Shown here one piece after another: positions 6,031-17,895 of a DNA stretch of 64,000 nucleotides. The notes below the pieces were generated by a model. That model saw only the letters and a program-made list of their open reading frames with translations. It had not been told where the DNA came from and ran no database searches. This DNA is from Clostridium sp. DSM 17811 (GTDB lineage: Bacteria; Bacillota; Clostridia; Clostridiales; Clostridiaceae). The DNA is taken from assembly GCF_018861905.1 (NCBI RefSeq), contig NZ_JAHLDU010000004.1, positions 186,001 through 250,000 of the forward strand, given 5' to 3'. A program made the translations under genes and the position numbers. Each line of letters begins with the position of its first letter. Position 1 is the first letter of the stretch.

Positions 6031-7458
6031 TTAACTAGCAGCACTCGCAATGCTCGCAAGTCTTATTTTAATCTTATTAAGTTTAAAAATTTGATGTCTC
6101 TCTAGTATTTCAAGTGTGGTATAAGTGTACCTAATAAATATAGCAGCTGTAATAAAAGATATCACATCTGAAATGGGATAAGCGAGCCATGCTCCGGATA
6201 CACCCATATTAAGCCCAATTACAAATGAATATACAAGTGGTATAAATACTATTAGCTGCCTAAATATTGATAACTTGAAAGATGCCTTAACTCTATTTAT
6301 AGCTTGGCAATAAGATATTGATAGATAATATACGCCAATGCAAGGGAATACAGCTATAACCATTCTAAAAGCCTTCGATGTTTGTTCAATAATGGCTTTA
6401 TCATTTATAAATAGGCCTATAAATGTATCTGAAAAAATCATAAATATTGCCCATAATAAAGTTGAACTTACAGATACTGCAATTATGGACGACTTAACAA
6501 CTTCTTTTAACCTTGTATAATTTCCTGCACCAAAATTATATGCAGCGATGGGTTGCATAGCTGTGCTTATACCCATTACTGTCATAAATAAAAACATTGA
6601 AACCCTTGTAGTTAAACCAATTGTTACGATGGCAGAATCTCCGCCATAGGAAAATAATAAATTGTTTAATATAGCAGCAACTATCGCGTCTGATATTTCT
6701 ATTATAAATGTTGAAAATCCAACACATACTATTCCAACAGACACTGCTTTGTTTAGGGTTAATTTAAAAGAAAATTTTAGGCTCATTTTTAATTGAATAA
6801 ATACAATAAGAACATATATAAACGCTATTATTTGAGATACAACGGTTGCTATAGCAGCTCCTTTTACTCCGTAAGAGAATACATTTATTAGAAAATAATC
6901 TATAATTACATTGAAAATTGCTCCAATAGAAGTGCTTAATAAAACTATTTTTGTGTTTCCAAAAGAAGTTATAATATATGATGCGATTATAGTAAAGGAT
7001 TGAAAGATTACACCGATTAAGATTATATTTATATAATCTTTTGCAAGAGAAAATGTATTTTTAGAGGCTCCTAGGCTAATTAGAATTTTATCTTGAAAAA
7101 CAAAAATGCTAATACCAATTACGGATATTGTTATAAACATTAAAACTATAGCATTTGGTATAATTATCTTAAGATTTTCGAAATCTTTGTCTCCACAACT
7201 TCTTGAAACGGAAGTTGAAGCCCCGATAGCTATAAGCATAGATATGGCAAAAAACAATCTTTGAATTGGGAAGGCTATGGTTAGAGCACCAATCGCATTA
7301 GCGCCTATAGCTTGACCTAAAAACATAGAATCAACCATGTTGTACATTTCGGCTACCATTAAAGAAATTATTGCTGGCACAGAAAATTTAAATAATAGTT
7401 TCCCGATTTTTTCTTCACCAAACATTTTGTTACTTTCTGTGATATTACTTATCGTCAT
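6031..7458 (-). CDS. MATE family multidrug/cation efflux protein
   Basis: About 475 residues with twelve predicted hydrophobic helices and the two-bundle layout of MATE transporters. The N-terminus GKLLFKFSVPAIISLMV and the MVDSMFLGQAIG segment are typical of the MepA/DinF-like branch. It should export organic compounds in exchange for Na+ or H+. A GTG at 7467 lies only 2 bases from AAGGAG; the ATG at 7458 (11-base spacing) is the more plausible start. An 8-bp inverted repeat (TACAAAGT 7551-7558, ACTTTGTA 7571-7578) lies about 95-120 bases upstream and might be an operator. Confidence 0.9.
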   Translation of the reverse strand: MTISNITESNKMFGEEKIGKLLFKFSVPAIISLMVAEMYNMVDSMFLGQAIGANAIGALTIAFPIQRLFFAISMLIAIGASTSVSRSCGDKDFENLKIIIPNAIVLMFITISVIGISIFVFQDKILISLGASKNTFSLAKDYINIILIGVIFQSFTIIASYIITSFGNTKIVLLSTSIGAIFNVIIDYFLINVFSYGVKGAAIATVVSQIIAFIYVLIVFIQLKMSLKFSFKLTLNKAVSVGIVCVGFSTFIIEISDAIVAAILNNLLFSYGGDSAIVTIGLTTRVSMFLFMTVMGISTAMQPIAAYNFGAGNYTRLKEVVKSSIIAVSVSSTLLWAIFMIFSDTFIGLFINDKAIIEQTSKAFRMVIAVFPCIGVYYLSISYCQAINRVKASFKLSIFRQLIVFIPLVYSFVIGLNMGVSGAWLAYPISDVISFITAAIFIRYTYTTLEILERHQIFKLNKIKIRLASIASAAS

Positions 7459-12404: not shown

Positions 12405-12420
12405 TAACAGTTTGTTTTAT
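12371..12420. terminator. Bidirectional terminator overlapping the nucleotidase stop codon
   Basis: A perfect 17-bp inverted repeat (12371-12387 with 12401-12417) lies between the convergent nucleotidase gene and queC and includes the nucleotidase stop codon. T-rich sequence follows on the plus side and A-rich sequence precedes it. Confidence 0.85.
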
Positions 12421-13085
12421 TTATTTTGCAACAAATATTTTTCTTTGAATTCTATATAACCCTTTTTTCTTAATTTGCAAGATGGGCAGTCTCCACAACC
12501 ATTACCTTTTATACCATTATAACAAGTTAATGTTTGCTCTTTAACAACGTCAAGCACACCTAAATCATAAGCCATTTTCCAAGTTTCTGCTTTGTTAATC
12601 CACATCAAAGGTGTTTCAATTACAAAATCATAACCCATGGCTAAATTTAAGGTAACATTTAAGGATTTAATAAACACATCTCTGCAATCTGGGTATCCAC
12701 TAAAATCACTTTGAGATACACCAGTTATAATATTACTTATACCTCTTTGCTTAGCAAACACGGCTACAAAAGTTAAAAATAATAAGTTACGTCCATCTAC
12801 AAAGGAATTAGGAACACTATCTTTTGGGGCTGACTTGTCCACTTTCATATCTTTTCTTGTTAAGGAATTGGGTGCTAACTGATTAAGTAAGCCTAAGTCT
12901 AAAACATGAAATTCAACGTCATGTTCTTTGCATATAGTTTTTGCACAATCAAGTTCTAATATATGTTTCTGGCCATAATCAAAAGACACAGCTATAACTT
13001 CCTTATATTTTTTTAATGCCCAAAATAAACAAGTTGTGCTATCTTGTCCGCCACTAAATACTACTACTGCTTTATCTCTATTCAT
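12417..13085 (-). CDS. queC: 7-cyano-7-deazaguanine (preQ0) synthase
   Basis: 222 residues. The ATP PP-loop [14 protein letters not shown] lies at the N-terminus and a C-terminal zinc site [17 protein letters not shown] completes the signature. QueC converts 7-carboxy-7-deazaguanine to preQ0 with ATP and ammonia, the last preQ0 step. It is the last gene of the riboswitch-controlled operon, 37 bases after folE. Confidence 0.97.
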
Positions 13086-13122: not shown

Positions 13123-13713
13123 TTATTTATTATAAAGCATCATTAATTTATTGTTTAAAATTACGTCAGTATTAAATCTTCCTCTAAAAGTAGTAGACAT
13201 TGTTTTAGTACCTGGTTTTTTTATTCCACGAGTAGTCATGCAGGCATGTTCACCTTCTATAATAACAGCAATGTCCGAAGATGTTGTTACTATTTCCATG
13301 ATTTCTGCAATGTCTGTTCCTATTCTTTCTTGAAGTTGAAGTCTTCGGCCTACCATATCAGCTATTCTTGCTATTTTACTTAGACCAATAATTTTTTTAT
13401 TAGGAACATATGCTACTGTTACTTTCATATCATACATAAGCGCCAAATGGTGTTCACAATGACTGAAAATTTGTATATCTTTCATTATAACTATATCACG
13501 AGAATCATCATTAACTATTAAATCATCAACAAATGTTGTATCAAACATTTTAGCAATTTCAGCATTGCTGTAACACATACCGGCAAATACTTCTTCATAC
13601 ATTTTAGATACACGTTTTGGTGTATCTATAAGTCCTTCACGGGTTGGGTCATCACCTAGTGCTATTAAAATGCCTCTTATATGTTTCTCAATTGCTTTTG
13701 TATCAATTGCCAT
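13123..13713 (-). CDS. folE: GTP cyclohydrolase I
   Basis: 196 residues, usual length. Zinc ligands lie in [10 protein letters not shown] (His and Cys) and in HACMTTRG. It converts GTP to 7,8-dihydroneopterin triphosphate, the first step of both folate and deazapurine synthesis. Its place between queE and queC, 3 bases after queE, and behind a preQ1 riboswitch, says that this copy serves queuosine. Confidence 0.97.
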
Positions 13714-13716
13714 AAC

Positions 13717-14382
13717 TTATACACCTCTCTTATTTGGATCCCAAATGATTTTATGAAGTTGAACTTGAAGATTAACACCATTCATTTTATTACTTTTCAT
13801 AAATTCTACAATATCTTCTAGGTCAATTTGTCCAAATACTGGACTAATATACACATTTGTTTTATTTGTTAAGGAATATTTATCTATTATACATTTGGAT
13901 TTTTGTAAATCTTCCATGCTACTAGCTACAAACTTAACTGTATCTTTATAAGTTAAATAAGCAAAGTTATTTAAATCCATTGATCCCTCCATACCACTTG
14001 CGGGTAGTTTATAATCCATATTAAAGCTCGGTGGGTTGTAAGTATTTGCAAATTCACCTAAATTAATACTACCATTAGTCTCAATTTCAATATGAATGGA
14101 GTTGTCGATTGACAAAATCTTTAAGAGATCTTTAATTCCTTCTTGTAATAGTGGTTCACCACCGGTTAAGGTTACATTTCGAATTTGGGTAGATTTTATA
14201 TATTCATATATATCATCAGGTGTCATGAGGTTATAACTGGCATCTGTCTCATTAGCCCAAGTGGTGTCACAGTAGCCACAATTAAGGTTACAACCTGCAA
14301 ATCTTATAAATACTACAAGTTGTCCTGAGAGCGGTCCTTCTCCGTTAACACTTATAAACTTTTCAACTACTTTATATTCCAA
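13717..14382 (-). CDS. queE: 7-carboxy-7-deazaguanine synthase, radical SAM
   Basis: The radical SAM cluster motif is CNLNCGYC (Cx3Cx2C), preceded by GEGPLSGQLVVFIRFAG, typical of QueE. It rearranges 6-carboxytetrahydropterin to CDG. The frame opens 51 bases further up, inside queD, but the TTG at 14382 is preferred: it follows the queD stop by one base, has GCGAGG 9 bases upstream and gives the family's usual start (xEYKVVEKFISVNGEG). The product is then 221 residues. Translation is probably coupled to queD. Confidence 0.93.
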   Translation of the reverse strand: MEYKVVEKFISVNGEGPLSGQLVVFIRFAGCNLNCGYCDTTWANETDASYNLMTPDDIYEYIKSTQIRNVTLTGGEPLLQEGIKDLLKILSIDNSIHIEIETNGSINLGEFANTYNPPSFNMDYKLPASGMEGSMDLNNFAYLTYKDTVKFVASSMEDLQKSKCIIDKYSLTNKTNVYISPVFGQIDLEDIVEFMKSNKMNGVNLQVQLHKIIWDPNKRGV

Positions 14383-14383
14383 T

Positions 14384-14815
14384 TTAATGTGCCTCGCTTT
14401 CTTCATATGATGCGCTATTATTAGGTGTTTCATAAACGGTAGTTCGTTTTACATTATATCCTTTATCTTTCATTTGTTTAAAGAAAAATTTTGCAAAGTT
14501 TTCAGCTGTTGTTCTAAAATCAACAAGTATCACTTTAAATCCGTCCTGTTTTATACAATTTAGGGTCTCATCTCTCATGCTACCTATTTGCACAATTAGA
14601 GCATGGTCATAGGCGTCAGCCATGGACTTAACATCCCTTTTTAAATCACCAAAATCTATTACCATACCTTCTAATTGACCGCCTTTTGTTAAGGCTTCTG
14701 ATTGTACTTCGACTTCAACCTTCCATCTATGTCCATGAATATTTGCACACTTTCCTTCATATCCAGAAAGAAAATGCGCACTATCAAAGCTATGTTCTGA
14801 TTTCAAAATATACAT
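14384..14815 (-). CDS. queD: 6-carboxy-5,6,7,8-tetrahydropterin synthase
   Basis: Small PTPS-family enzyme (about 143 residues). The zinc histidines lie in SAHFLSGY and NIHGHRW, and the catalytic Cys in GKCANIHGH. It converts dihydroneopterin triphosphate to 6-carboxytetrahydropterin. Two ATGs are possible: the one at 14824 lies 1 base from AGGAGG, the one at 14815 lies 10 bases away and is preferred. It follows the activase gene on the same strand after a short gap. Confidence 0.95.
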   Translation of the reverse strand: MYILKSEHSFDSAHFLSGYEGKCANIHGHRWKVEVEVQSEALTKGGQLEGMVIDFGDLKRDVKSMADAYDHALIVQIGSMRDETLNCIKQDGFKVILVDFRTTAENFAKFFFKQMKDKGYNVKRTTVYETPNNSASYEESEAH

Positions 14816-14836
14816 ATGGGGCATTCCTCCTAAAAT

Positions 14837-15595
14837 TTATAAAAATTCACTCCCGTAATAACAACATCCAATGGCCCCATTAAATTGAGGGTCTTCGATA
14901 GAAACTATTTCATCGTAATTGTTGCTTAAATATTTTTTAATTGCAATATTACTTGCAACACCACCTGTTAAGATTAATTTTTTACCACGGAACTTACTAA
15001 GTAATGGTAGGAGCCTTTTGTATAGGGAGTAATTAACGCTAGAGCACAAACTTTCTATACTTATACCTTCGGCTATTTTACCAATTAATTCTGATTCAGA
15101 AAATACTGCGCAAGTTGAATTGAGTTCTATAGCATTTTCATAATGTTTGCTCATCTCGCCAAGTGATACTTCTAGAACACTTGCCATATTCTCTAAATAT
15201 CTACCACAAGATGCAGCGCATTTTTCATTAAGCTCTAGGTCTGTTGTGATACCTTTTTCTACTTTTACAATTTTAACATCTTGACCACCTATATCTAAAA
15301 GTATAAAATTATTTAAACCTGTCTGATAAAATCCTCCATATACATGAGCTTTTATCTCATTTATTGGTGAAAATAGTAATAAATCAGTGTTGTTTTTACC
15401 ATAACCTGTAGAAACTGCTTTATCAATATGGCTAATATCAAGTTTTTCTAAATCAACAATAATTTTACCATCAAACTTACAATAATTTCTGTAAAAACTC
15501 ATTGTGCTTACTTTCTTTTTTTGCATAATCTTATTGTCTTCCATTAAAACTATTTTAACCTCGCGGCTTCCAAGGTCTATACCTAGTACTCGCAT
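14837..15595 (-). CDS. 2-hydroxyacyl-CoA dehydratase activase-like ATPase (HgdC/BcrAD family)
   Basis: 252 residues with the ASKHA ATPase fold: GIDLGSREVKIV at the N-terminus, LLDIGGQDVKIV near 99-110 and LTGGVASN near the C-terminus. The cluster-ligand cysteines of the family fall at Cys126 (NEKCAASCGR) and Cys162 (NSTCAVFSESE), so a dimer can hold one [4Fe-4S] between subunits. Such activases use ATP to push one low-potential electron into a partner, here surely the protein encoded just upstream, whose stop overlaps this start by 13 bases. GGAGG lies 7 bases before the ATG. The operon context is queuosine synthesis, not amino-acid fermentation. Confidence 0.88.
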   Translation of the reverse strand: MRVLGIDLGSREVKIVLMEDNKIMQKKKVSTMSFYRNYCKFDGKIIVDLEKLDISHIDKAVSTGYGKNNTDLLLFSPINEIKAHVYGGFYQTGLNNFILLDIGGQDVKIVKVEKGITTDLELNEKCAASCGRYLENMASVLEVSLGEMSKHYENAIELNSTCAVFSESELIGKIAEGISIESLCSSVNYSLYKRLLPLLSKFRGKKLILTGGVASNIAIKKYLSNNYDEIVSIEDPQFNGAIGCCYYGSEFL

Positions 15596-16593
15596 TCTTT
15601 AGCCTCCTTCAAATCTAGCAACATATCAAGGAAGGCTTCTAACCTAAGCTTTGTTCTTGCGTCTAAGACGTTTAATTTGTCGCCTTCAATATTTAATATG
15701 GGAATATTTAATTTCTCTTTTAAAACTATATCTGCAACTGCCCTATAGCAAAATGCTTGAGTGTAGTGAATTATTCCGTCTAATTTACGATTGTCTATTT
15801 GTTTTTGAATCTCTACAATCCTAAAACTCGTATCATAAGGATAAGTATAATCATAGTATTGATGATATATATCAATGGCGTTATTAGCTCTTGGAAAAGC
15901 AAATTCTCTTTGAACCTCATTGTATACAAAACTAGCATTAAGATTTTCAACAAATGCGTAGATATCTGGAGTCATAGGTGGTACACCCATATAGCCAAGG
16001 CGAAGTTTTCTAATTACTGGTTTTCTGTTTTTAATTTCACAAATAATTTTTTTTAAATCAACGTCAAAAGCATCTACATTACAATTAAAATCACTTGAAC
16101 TTACTTGATAAAGATGATTTTCAAAGCCTGTTGCTTTATTATGTATATAAGTTAATTCATCAATTTCTTTGACCAAGGCGCGAGTTTTATTTATGCGGGT
16201 CTTAACTATTTCAACTTCTTTTATTGTTACATTAAAGACATTCATAAATTTTTTTATTTCATGTTCTACATCCTCTAACTTGTGACTATGAGGGAAGGAA
16301 AATGGATAAACTTTTATTCCTCGTAGTTCTAGTACTTCAATTAGAGCTTTTGTGTTAGAACAATCGCCCTCAACAACTCCAACTATTTCTTTTATGTCAT
16401 TTTGTAAACAGGCTCCATAAATACCCTTTATCCAGGTACATAAACTCCTAGGGAAGCCATCTCTTTCCGCAATGTCTATATATTTCAAATAGTCATCTGA
16501 GGTTATAAAAATATTGTTTAAATCGACAGGTGTATAACCTGCTGCAATTAGAATTTCTACTGGAACAGTAGTTGTTAAACCTATTTTTTTCAT
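15583..16593 (-). CDS. 2-hydroxyacyl-CoA dehydratase / double-cubane-type reductase-like protein
   Basis: 336 residues of the HgdB/BcrC/FldBC superfamily. The ATG at 16593, 7 bases from AGGAGG, replaces an upstream in-frame ATG at 16641. Candidate iron-sulfur ligands are Cys52 (RSLCTWIKG), Cys62, Cys78 (EGDCSNT) and Cys282 (QAFCYRAVADIV); the last is followed by the family ending IPILNIEGD. Members receive one electron from an ATP-driven activase and carry out hard reductions or radical dehydrations. Only one such subunit is encoded, whereas hydroxyacyl-CoA dehydratases need two; this is closer to single-subunit double-cubane proteins. First gene after a preQ1 riboswitch, so a step in deazapurine or queuosine metabolism is inferred. 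True substrate unknown. Confidence 0.8.
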   Translation of the reverse strand: MKKIGLTTTVPVEILIAAGYTPVDLNNIFITSDDYLKYIDIAERDGFPRSLCTWIKGIYGACLQNDIKEIVGVVEGDCSNTKALIEVLELRGIKVYPFSFPHSHKLEDVEHEIKKFMNVFNVTIKEVEIVKTRINKTRALVKEIDELTYIHNKATGFENHLYQVSSSDFNCNVDAFDVDLKKIICEIKNRKPVIRKLRLGYMGVPPMTPDIYAFVENLNASFVYNEVQREFAFPRANNAIDIYHQYYDYTYPYDTSFRIVEIQKQIDNRKLDGIIHYTQAFCYRAVADIVLKEKLNIPILNIEGDKLNVLDARTKLRLEAFLDMLLDLKEAKECEY

Positions 16594-16636
16594 TACGATT
16601 CCTCCTAAAAGATAACAAAAGAACCATCTGATACCA

Positions 16637-16707
16637 AACAAAAAAACTACCTAAAACGGTAGTTACGTCCTAGTTTTGTTTATAGACAGGATGGTTTAGA
16701 ACTGTCT
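16637..16707 (-). promoter_or_regulatory. preQ1-I riboswitch with terminator
   Basis: On the minus strand P1 is AGACAG (16702-16707) with CTGTCT (16684-16689), enclosing loop TTCTAAACCATC. The A-rich tail ATAAACAAAACTAGG (16669-16683) then folds back, as in class I preQ1 aptamers (the known T. tengcongensis and B. subtilis aptamers share the short stem, C-rich loop and AACAAAAC/AAAAACTA tail ending in AGG). An intrinsic terminator (GGTAGTT 16658-16664 with AACTACC 16645-16651, then eight T) lies directly downstream. Binding of preQ1 should stop transcription of the operon down to queC. Confidence 0.88.
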
Positions 16708-16729
16708 TATTTAAGTTTTATATTAATAA

Positions 16730-16758
16730 AGTTTACTATATTTTAATTGCTATGTCAA
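16730..16758 (-). promoter_or_regulatory. Promoter of the preQ1-regulated operon
   Basis: TTGACA at 16753-16758 and TAAACT at 16730-16735 on the minus strand, 17 bases apart, place the transcription start near 16723, about 15 bases before the aptamer stem. Confidence 0.6.
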
Positions 16759-16770
16759 ATTGTCTCGAAA

Positions 16771-16812
16771 AATAAAAACTGCCACAGAAATAATATCTGT
16801 AGCAGTTTTTGT
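16771..16812 (-). terminator. Terminator after the G5/3D gene
   Basis: AAAACTGCCACAGA (16775-16788) pairs with TCTGTAGCAGTTTT (16796-16809); T-rich sequence follows on the minus strand. Confidence 0.8.
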
Positions 16813-16833: not shown

Positions 16834-17895
16834 TTAGTTTAGTATATGCACCGTCAGGTATTGTACACCCCAATCACCGCATTCACCTTCATTATTAAAG
16901 AATAGATCTATAAAATTTCCTTTTATTGCTGAACCGGTATCAGCCGCGATAGCATTTCCATAACCCTCTATATATAATTTTGTTCCAAGAGGTATGACAC
17001 TTGGATCTACAGCTACGGTACTATATCCATTTGGATTTCTAACAGCCTTTTGTCCTGAGGCAGTATAAGTGTTATTAGTTCCTTCAGAACCCCAGTAAGC
17101 AGTAGTTTTTACAGAAAAAGTTTTACTATATGAATTACTTTTGGAAGAAATGGGAGTTGCTTTTGATGCAGTAGATTCTCTGGAAATTGAAGATCCCCTT
17201 GAAACAGATACTGCTGGCATAGTACCCTGAACTATGATTTTATCTTTAGGCTGTGTAACTAAGGTTTCTTTAACAACTTTCCTAGCCACTTCTTTTCCAT
17301 TTTCATAAGTTACATTTAATGTAATACTTTTCAAGCCATTAACTCCATTTTGTGAAACTGTTCTTTCAGATTTTAATATACTATCATTTTCTTTAATAAC
17401 AGTTTTAAAATCAACAGGTTTTGACTGATTTATTGTTTTTGAATTAACCCTAGTTATTGTTATGCCTAGGCCACTCGATAATTTAGTTTCTTTTGATGGT
17501 GAAATTTTATCAGTGGGGCTTATGTCTATCTGTTGTGCCTTTAACATTAAAGCAACATCTTTTTCTGCAGATTTAACATTAAGTTTCTTATTATCCACAA
17601 AGACGTTAACGTTTATAGCACGGGTTATAGTTATAACGCCGTTGTTTTGTATTTTTGAATTCAGAGCCTTATCAACTTTATCTTTTACGTCTATGCTTAT
17701 ATCTGATTTTTTTAGAGCGTTACCAAATGTCTTTTGATAAGTTACCATATTAGTTGATTTACCGTCTATAACTACCGTAATGTTTTTTCTAATGGAGCAT
17801 ACAAAAATAGTTGAAGTTGTAATTATTGCCACCAGTATGAATCCAATTACAAATTTTATTCGTCTACCTTCCATAAATCTAAATATAAAAATCAT
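16834..17895 (-). CDS. Cell-wall protein with DUF348, G5 and 3D domains (YabE-like)
   Basis: 353 residues: an N-terminal membrane anchor (FVIGFILVAIITTSTIFV), two DUF348 repeats (about 35-70 and 90-130), a G5 domain (about 150-225) and a C-terminal 3D domain with the conserved aspartates in VAVDPSVIPLGTKLYIEGYG and ADTGSAIKGNFIDLFF. This is the layout of YabE/Rpf-like muralytic enzymes, lytic transglycosylases that remodel peptidoglycan outside the cell. AGGAG directly abuts the ATG at 17895 with no spacer and the next ATG (17874) is too far, so the start is unusual. A long structured leader lies upstream. Confidence 0.88.
   Translation of the reverse strand: MIFIFRFMEGRRIKFVIGFILVAIITTSTIFVCSIRKNITVVIDGKSTNMVTYQKTFGNALKKSDISIDVKDKVDKALNSKIQNNGVITITRAINVNVFVDNKKLNVKSAEKDVALMLKAQQIDISPTDKISPSKETKLSSGLGITITRVNSKTINQSKPVDFKTVIKENDSILKSERTVSQNGVNGLKSITLNVTYENGKEVARKVVKETLVTQPKDKIIVQGTMPAVSVSRGSSISRESTASKATPISSKSNSYSKTFSVKTTAYWGSEGTNNTYTASGQKAVRNPNGYSTVAVDPSVIPLGTKLYIEGYGNAIAADTGSAIKGNFIDLFFNNEGECGDWGVQYLTVHILN

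Follow-up and report, generated by a model that had tools for sequence, protein, structure and literature searches.

An operon of HGD, ACT and queuosine genes

The window analyzed here is a 64,000-nucleotide stretch of Clostridium sp. DSM 17811 (contig NZ_JAHLDU010000004.1, positions 186,001 to 250,000). On its minus strand lies an operon with the order riboswitch-terminator-HGD-ACT-queD-queE-folE-queC (Table 1), in which HGD and ACT, whose ends share 13 bases, are predicted to encode a catalytic iron-sulfur (Fe-S) protein and its ATP-driven activase. A sequence-only reading of the window had described this gene set, with overlapping HGD and activase genes followed by queD, queE, folE and queC; domain libraries confirmed it, and the QueC, QueD and QueE proteins all scored above the cut-offs of their NCBIfam equivalogs. 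Based on genome comparisons, we predict that HGD and ACT are probably a non-orthologous replacement of QueF that carries out an ATP-driven reduction of the preQ0 nitrile to preQ1.

Table 1. Features of the operon and its leader in the window
Feature	Position	Strand	Basis
Promoter-like site TTGACA-17-TAAACT	16730-16758	minus	Consensus scan, 10/12; alone no evidence of function
preQ1 class I (type I-like) riboswitch aptamer	16664-16710	minus	RF00522, 22.3 bits, and features
Intrinsic terminator, AACTACC-loop-GGTAGTT then T-run	16645-16664	minus	Stem and T-run
HGD, HgdB/BcrC/DCCP-like catalytic component, proposed preQ0 reductase	15583-16593	minus	PF06050; 336 amino acids from ATG
ACT, ATP-driven activase, HgdC-like, Cys126/Cys162	14837-15595	minus	PF01869, TIGR00241; 252 amino acids
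QueD	14384-14824	minus	TIGR03367, above cut-off
QueE (clostridial type)	13717-14433 (longest open reading frame)	minus	TIGR03963, 343 bits; match begins at residue 20
FolE (GTP cyclohydrolase I)	13123-13713	minus	PF01227
QueC	12417-13085	minus	TIGR00364, 266.5 bits

The ATG was taken as the start of HGD, for which the list of open reading frames (ORFs) also holds a longer version from a TTG at 16641. The true start of QueE is probably further in than that of its longest ORF, near 14382.

HGD and ACT proteins

Pfam assigned HGD to the HGD-D family (PF06050; 131.5 bits against a cut-off of 28.4, E = 6.8e-38) and ACT to BcrAD_BadFG (PF01869; E = 1.1e-28), and neither protein matched the QueF domain (PF14489). 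ACT also matched CoA_E_activ (TIGR00241; 156.2 bits against a cut-off of 125.4), the HgdC structure 1hux (E = 1e-43) and 4eht. In current databases, the pair is named “2-hydroxyacyl-CoA dehydratase” and “acyl-CoA dehydratase activase.”

An AlphaFold2 model of HGD, built from a 20-row alignment, had a predicted local distance difference test (pLDDT) score of 84.6. Foldseek analysis with this model identified DCCP, HadBC, BzdNO and MbdON in the PDB, and the matches at ranks 1-15 all belonged to the superfamily of 2-hydroxyacyl-CoA dehydratases (HAD) and class I benzoyl-CoA reductases (BCR); the best was 7yyl_A, a DCCP (TMq 0.74, 22% identity). By its domain, its fold and a partner activase with two cluster cysteines, HGD belongs to this superfamily.

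In an alignment of 100 sequences that included the window’s, Cys52, Cys78 and Cys282 of HGD were invariant (100/100), and they align with cysteines of DCCP and HadC. The sequence-only reading had listed Cys62 with these three; it is the next most conserved column (86/100) and is not invariant, so that part of the claim did not stand. Three cysteines are thus available for a predicted [4Fe-4S] cluster. The activase cysteines named in the same reading, Cys126 and Cys162, held up: both were invariant (100/100), and both occur at bridging-cluster positions. The sole NCBIfam match of HGD, the double-cubane protein family NF040772, was rejected, as HGD reached 52.1 bits against a cut-off of 350 and has three invariant cysteines; a double cubane [8Fe-9S] needs more than three.

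Queuosine pathway in the window’s genome

In the window’s genome (5.19 Mb, 98 contigs, rated 100% complete), genome searches identified TGT, QueA, QueG and QueC; QueF and QueH were not found. Of 14 control genomes, 8 gave a QueF hit in this search, including those of E. coli and B. subtilis. Because TGT, QueA, QueG and QueC were found and QueF was not, the pathway has one hole, from preQ0 to preQ1. Of the two reductases for which the sequence-only reading had seen no gene in the window, QueF was not found in the whole genome either, and epoxyqueuosine reductase is present as QueG.

HGD and QueF across genomes

We compared HGD and QueF in three genome sets, which may overlap: (a) 60 relatives, searched for HGD, QueF, QueC, QueG, QueH, TGT and QueA; (b) a class draw of 391 genomes, with limits of E ≤ 1e-40 for HGD, 1e-15 for QueF and 1e-25 for QueC; and (c) 50 genomes from the best 80 of 140 HGD loci, picked to avoid visible duplicates. 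In the class-wide searches, scoring was limited to the top candidates of a first pass, so genes such as QueC may have been missed. The tallies count HGD alone; ACT stood beside HGD in every locus that was fetched, and the surroundings of HGD in G009, G052, G054, G113, G165, G185 and G293 were not among these.

Within set (a), 41 of the 60 genomes had an HGD match at E 0.001, and 34 of these were orthologues (≥60% identity, some of them fragments). The other HGD-type matches had ≤33% identity, except for short pieces with 38% (G017, G020) and 51% (G050). QueF was counted as present in 5 genomes. QueC was present in 35, of which 33 carried HGD without QueF and two (G042, G050) carried QueF without an HGD orthologue. 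TGT and QueA were found in 60/60, and the 34 HGD genomes included 33 with QueC and 34 with QueG or QueH. One relative (G014) has a QueC fragment of only 38 residues and was not counted as QueC positive; another (G009, 410 contigs) has an HGD fragment and no QueC hit.

In set (b), HGD was detected in 27 genomes and QueF in 38, with no genome carrying both. Among the 53 genomes with QueC, 25 had HGD only, 27 had QueF only and one had neither; this last genome (G168) is 84% complete, and its QueC gene is truncated. Eleven genomes had QueF without QueC. True QueF was found in 0 of the 50 genomes of set (c), as the two weak matches were both FolE, one of them at the Pfam cut-off. When sets (a) and (b) were merged, the 85 QueC genomes comprised 55 with HGD, 29 with QueF, none with both and one with neither.

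QueF is a T-fold protein related to FolE and unrelated to the HGD fold, and the kinship of QueF and FolE was visible as cross-hits in the QueF searches. Weak QueF hits (21-28 bits) in loci L066-L071, L203 and L204 were rejected as FolE, with 148-175.5 bits against the FolE profile; L066 (G017) and L203 (G444) reach Pfam’s QueF cut-off though they are FolE, and the hit in L072 is neither QueF nor FolE. The weak hits in set (a), with G017 over the Pfam cut-off and six below it, were all FolE or another protein. In G251, a distant HGD/ACT-like pair (L182, 12532-14638; profile scores of 47 and 139 bits) lies about 5 kb from queF; it was excluded as a paralogue, as HGD reached at least 431 bits at the loci compared.

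The 80 listed HGD loci include some from Clostridiaceae, other Clostridia, Halobacteroidaceae and Fusobacteriaceae. One HGD-ACT-que operon (L116) comes from a record whose name, Lutibacter sp. B2, points to Bacteroidota; its QueC groups with Clostridium, and the record probably has a wrong name or is a mixed assembly.

Gene order around HGD and QueF

After removal of repeats, 103 distinct HGD loci were available, not counting the window, and ACT was the next gene after HGD in all 103. In 80 of them, at least one of queC, queD and queE lay on the same strand no more than six ORFs away. A further 8 had QueT or a COG1738-type transporter (PF02592, Vut_1) without a que gene nearby; seven of these were identified with Pfam and one (L159) with a profile built in this analysis. 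PF02592 corresponds to COG1738/QPTR (PMC11130926). In L132 (9775-10449) and L133 (9775-10458), the COG1738-type transporter comes directly after ACT, where que genes would be, an arrangement which suggests that an imported precursor may feed HGD-ACT.

QueF-type operons showed corresponding arrangements. The order queD-queE-folE-queC-queF (L172, L173, L176, L209, L211) has its counterpart in HGD-ACT-queD-queE-folE-queC, and the order queF-queC-queD-queE (L206, L210, L218, L221) in HGD-ACT-queC-queD-queE, while a QueT-QueF pair (L175) mirrors HGD-ACT-QueT. QueF stands apart from QueC in some genomes, namely G350 (L174, L175) and G140 (L178, L179). The annotation of a 0.96-Mb replicon of Ilyobacter polytropus lists “2-hydroxyacyl-CoA dehydratase,” “acyl-CoA dehydratase activase,” queD, queE, folE and queC.

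The sequence-only reading had proposed tabulating how often the pair stands beside que genes or the riboswitch, and it had named a scenario that would tell against it, in which queF and queG or queH would lie at other sites of the genome and no other genome would have the pair beside que genes. That scenario did not occur.

Upstream of the operon, the window encodes a G5/3D-domain protein (16834-17895, minus strand) with its own strong terminator (16774-16810); the protein is present in 10 of 31 loci compared, the window included.

Riboswitch element

The sequence-only reading had also claimed a preQ1-I aptamer with a terminator ahead of HGD. A search of the whole window at the RF00522 gathering level identified no preQ1 element, and Rfam gathering searches were also negative in eight HGD-bearing loci and in eight loci around queF/queC of QueF-type genomes. 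A permissive RF00522 search gave 22.3 bits in the window (E = 0.022 in a 351-base search, under the gathering score of 39), 25.0 bits in L107 (7867-7913) and 18.0 bits before queD in L172 (4702-4750). This clostridial aptamer group, at 18-25 bits in the three places measured, may be missed by Rfam-based annotation. Because the RF00522 score is below gathering, the identity of the aptamer rests on its features and conservation; on these and on the terminator stem the claim stands, and on the gathering score it does not.

The aptamer has the P1 stem GACAG/CUGUC and an A-rich tail AAACAAAACUAGG. In P1, UU follows the 5' strand and UC precedes the 3' strand (GACAG-UU...UC-CUGUC), the two features by which preQ1 riboswitches of class I, type I are recognized (PMC11625349). 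Fifty-nine distinct aptamers carry the type I letters too, but the search pattern itself requires those letters. The folding energy of the window element is mildly better than that of shuffled sequences (z = -2.0), with 9 of 200 shuffles equally good.

The riboswitch pattern was composed after the sequences had been viewed, and it was scanned over both strands of 4.94 million bases from the window and the loci, with loci that recur within a genome counted each time. It matched 136 times: 111 matches lie before HGD, 16 before queD, 4 before queT and 2 before queC. The remaining three comprise one before a 71-amino-acid ORF just ahead of HGD (L189), the window’s own match before HGD and one at the end of L040; the script called no ORF after either of the latter two. 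Mononucleotide-shuffled loci gave one match, and the element thus exceeds chance. The pattern occurred within 400 bases of HGD in 86 of the 100 distinct loci for which 250 bases or more were available upstream.

The same pattern heads both HGD-type and QueF-type operons. In several loci of the window’s genus (L034, L036, L037, L039, L041), an insertion parts HGD-ACT from queDE, and each piece has its own copy of the riboswitch. A tandem pair of riboswitches (6094-6131 and 6229-6265) was seen before queD in one QueF-type operon (L169).

Discussion

The reading of HGD-ACT as a QueF substitute follows from four results: no QueF found in the window’s genome, mutual exclusion of HGD and QueF, the swap of operon position and the shared riboswitch. 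Together they argue strongly for the assignment of the pair to the step from preQ0 to preQ1, as the sequence-only reading had suggested in one of its alternatives. The Fe-S, ATP-driven reduction of a nitrile is proposed because of the protein family to which HGD and ACT belong.

Several observations weigh against this assignment. The riboswitch pattern was absent in 14 of the 100 evaluable HGD loci; six of these share one family code (f55), and in two (L095, L096) the gene start was wrong and the true upstream region was not scanned. Another 15 of the 103 loci had no que genes or transporter within six ORFs, although several of their genomes have QueC elsewhere. Two HGD genomes of the class draw (G110, G344) had no QueC hit. 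Nor can the genome counts be treated as independent. In a tree built from 105 QueC rows (78 HGD, 27 QueF), made with a quick method and with long-branch warnings, the HGD/QueF label changes at least four times, and the starred branches force two changes. HGD accompanies several widely separated QueC lineages on this tree, and two genus codes (g3, g18) each contain both systems; the exclusion of HGD and QueF is thus neither a single frozen event nor 84 separate ones. In terms of chemistry, the NADPH-driven QueF does the same step without ATP, which makes the HGD-ACT route a costly one, and we know of no HAD/BCR family relative that reduces a nitrile. Finally, QueT follows ACT in G344 (L168); since one review describes QueT as a transporter of preQ1 alone (PMC11625349), a preQ0 reductase would be idle in that genome.

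Four other roles for the pair were weighed. The best placed of them, itself improbable, is that the pair reduces preQ0 already inserted in tRNA (preQ0-34 tRNA to preQ1-34 tRNA) rather than the free base. TGT can accept preQ0, and reduction at the tRNA level would equally replace QueF genetically. However, a preQ1-type riboswitch before the pair suggests a free-base product, the eight loci without nearby que genes place the pair beside precursor transporters, and Pfam identified no RNA-binding domain in HGD or ACT of the window. A shade less probable is that the substrate is a different 7-deazaguanine intermediate, such as the amide formed by QueC, or that the pair yields another end product, bypassing the step from preQ0 to preQ1. 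The exclusion of QueF alone leaves the substrate unfixed, but the retention of QueC in nearly all HGD genomes of set (a), and of TGT and QueA in all 60 genomes, points to preQ0 as input and preQ1 as output.

It is very unlikely that HGD stands here by accident, as an ordinary 2-hydroxyacyl-CoA dehydratase from amino acid fermentation. The database names match such a role; against it, the neighborhood and riboswitch are kept across loci of Clostridia, Halobacteroidaceae and Fusobacteriaceae, the eight window proteins scanned with Pfam included neither a second HGD subunit nor a CoA-transferase, and the orthologues are distinct in identity from the other HGD-type matches. Epoxyqueuosine reduction is a reductive step of the same pathway, but replacement of QueG or QueH by the pair, the other suggestion of the sequence-only reading, can hardly be credited given QueG in the window’s genome and QueG or QueH in every HGD genome of set (a).

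If HGD-ACT replaces QueF, ferredoxin or flavodoxin would reduce an ACT homodimer with a bridging [4Fe-4S] cluster, which would use ATP to hand the electrons singly to HGD. HGD, probably a homodimer, would hold one [4Fe-4S] cluster per subunit on Cys52, Cys78 and Cys282, with one iron open. This iron, or a site close to it, would bind the preQ0 nitrile, whose reduction to the aminomethyl group of preQ1 would take four electrons and four protons. The product would then pass to TGT, QueA and QueG, and would also bind the riboswitch, whereupon transcription of the operon would be terminated. On this scheme, the pair is likely the first known ATP-dependent nitrile reductase, taking a carbon-nitrogen triple bond to CH2-NH2 with four electrons at a site-differentiated [4Fe-4S] cluster. 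It would also give strict anaerobes a second way, unrelated to QueF, of carrying out that enzyme’s reaction.

Among known systems, QueF (EC 1.7.1.13) shares with HGD-ACT the predicted step, comparable operons, the riboswitch and the remaining pathway; it differs in using NADPH as donor, whereas HGD-ACT is an Fe-S/ATP system without a QueF domain. The class I benzoyl-CoA reductases BzdNOPQ and MbdONPQ resemble the pair in the fold of the catalytic subunit, in the activase family and in the three-cysteine cluster of BzdO, whose catalytic aqua-[4Fe-4S] is held by three cysteines (PMC11971306). Unlike these enzymes, which have two different catalytic subunits, HGD appears as a single one, with no sign of a double-cubane subunit, and its proposed substrate is a nucleobase and not a CoA ester. 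The heterodimer typical of 2-hydroxyacyl-CoA dehydratases and benzoyl-CoA reductases was not seen: one HGD gene and then ACT occurred in 103/103 loci, no other HGD-like ORF was labelled beside HGD in the gene rows of the loci compared, and HGD had no second match in the window’s genome at E 0.001.

The 2-hydroxyisocaproyl-CoA dehydratase HadBC/HadI with HgdC is alike in fold (3o3n) and activase (1hux, 4eht). HAD reactions are net redox-neutral and have CoA esters as substrates (PMC11971306), whereas the proposed nitrile reduction by HGD needs four electrons net. DCCP/DCCP-R (6eno, 7yyl) provide the best fold match and likewise have one catalytic gene and an activase, and DCCPs, which are double-cubane proteins, reduce acetylene, hydrazine and azide (PMC11971306). 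HGD differs in its low NF040772 score and in a cysteine number that appears too small for a double cubane. A precedent for non-orthologous replacement in this pathway is QueH for QueG (PMC5372724), which concerns another step and another protein family.

In the open-access papers searched, with subscription papers and preprints outside the search, we found no description of a role for HGD-ACT in queuosine synthesis. If the prediction is correct, the pair fills the missing queuosine step in a large set of anaerobes, which inventories built on QueF would call deficient. One inventory of gut bacteria includes QueF in its signature of prototrophs and attributes queuosine in Firmicutes mostly to Bacillales and Negativicutes (PMC6593275), and a second classes pathways by the presence of QueF among other proteins (PMC11130926). 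The prediction also bears on carriers of COG1738 in genomes that lack QueF, since the absence of queF has been taken to mean that preQ0 cannot be used (PMC5372724). For the protein family, the prediction would correct the names of proteins now called 2-hydroxyacyl-CoA dehydratases, would extend the chemistry of the HAD/BCR/DCCP family to nitrile reduction, and would tie an ATP-driven, low-potential Fe-S system to tRNA modification.

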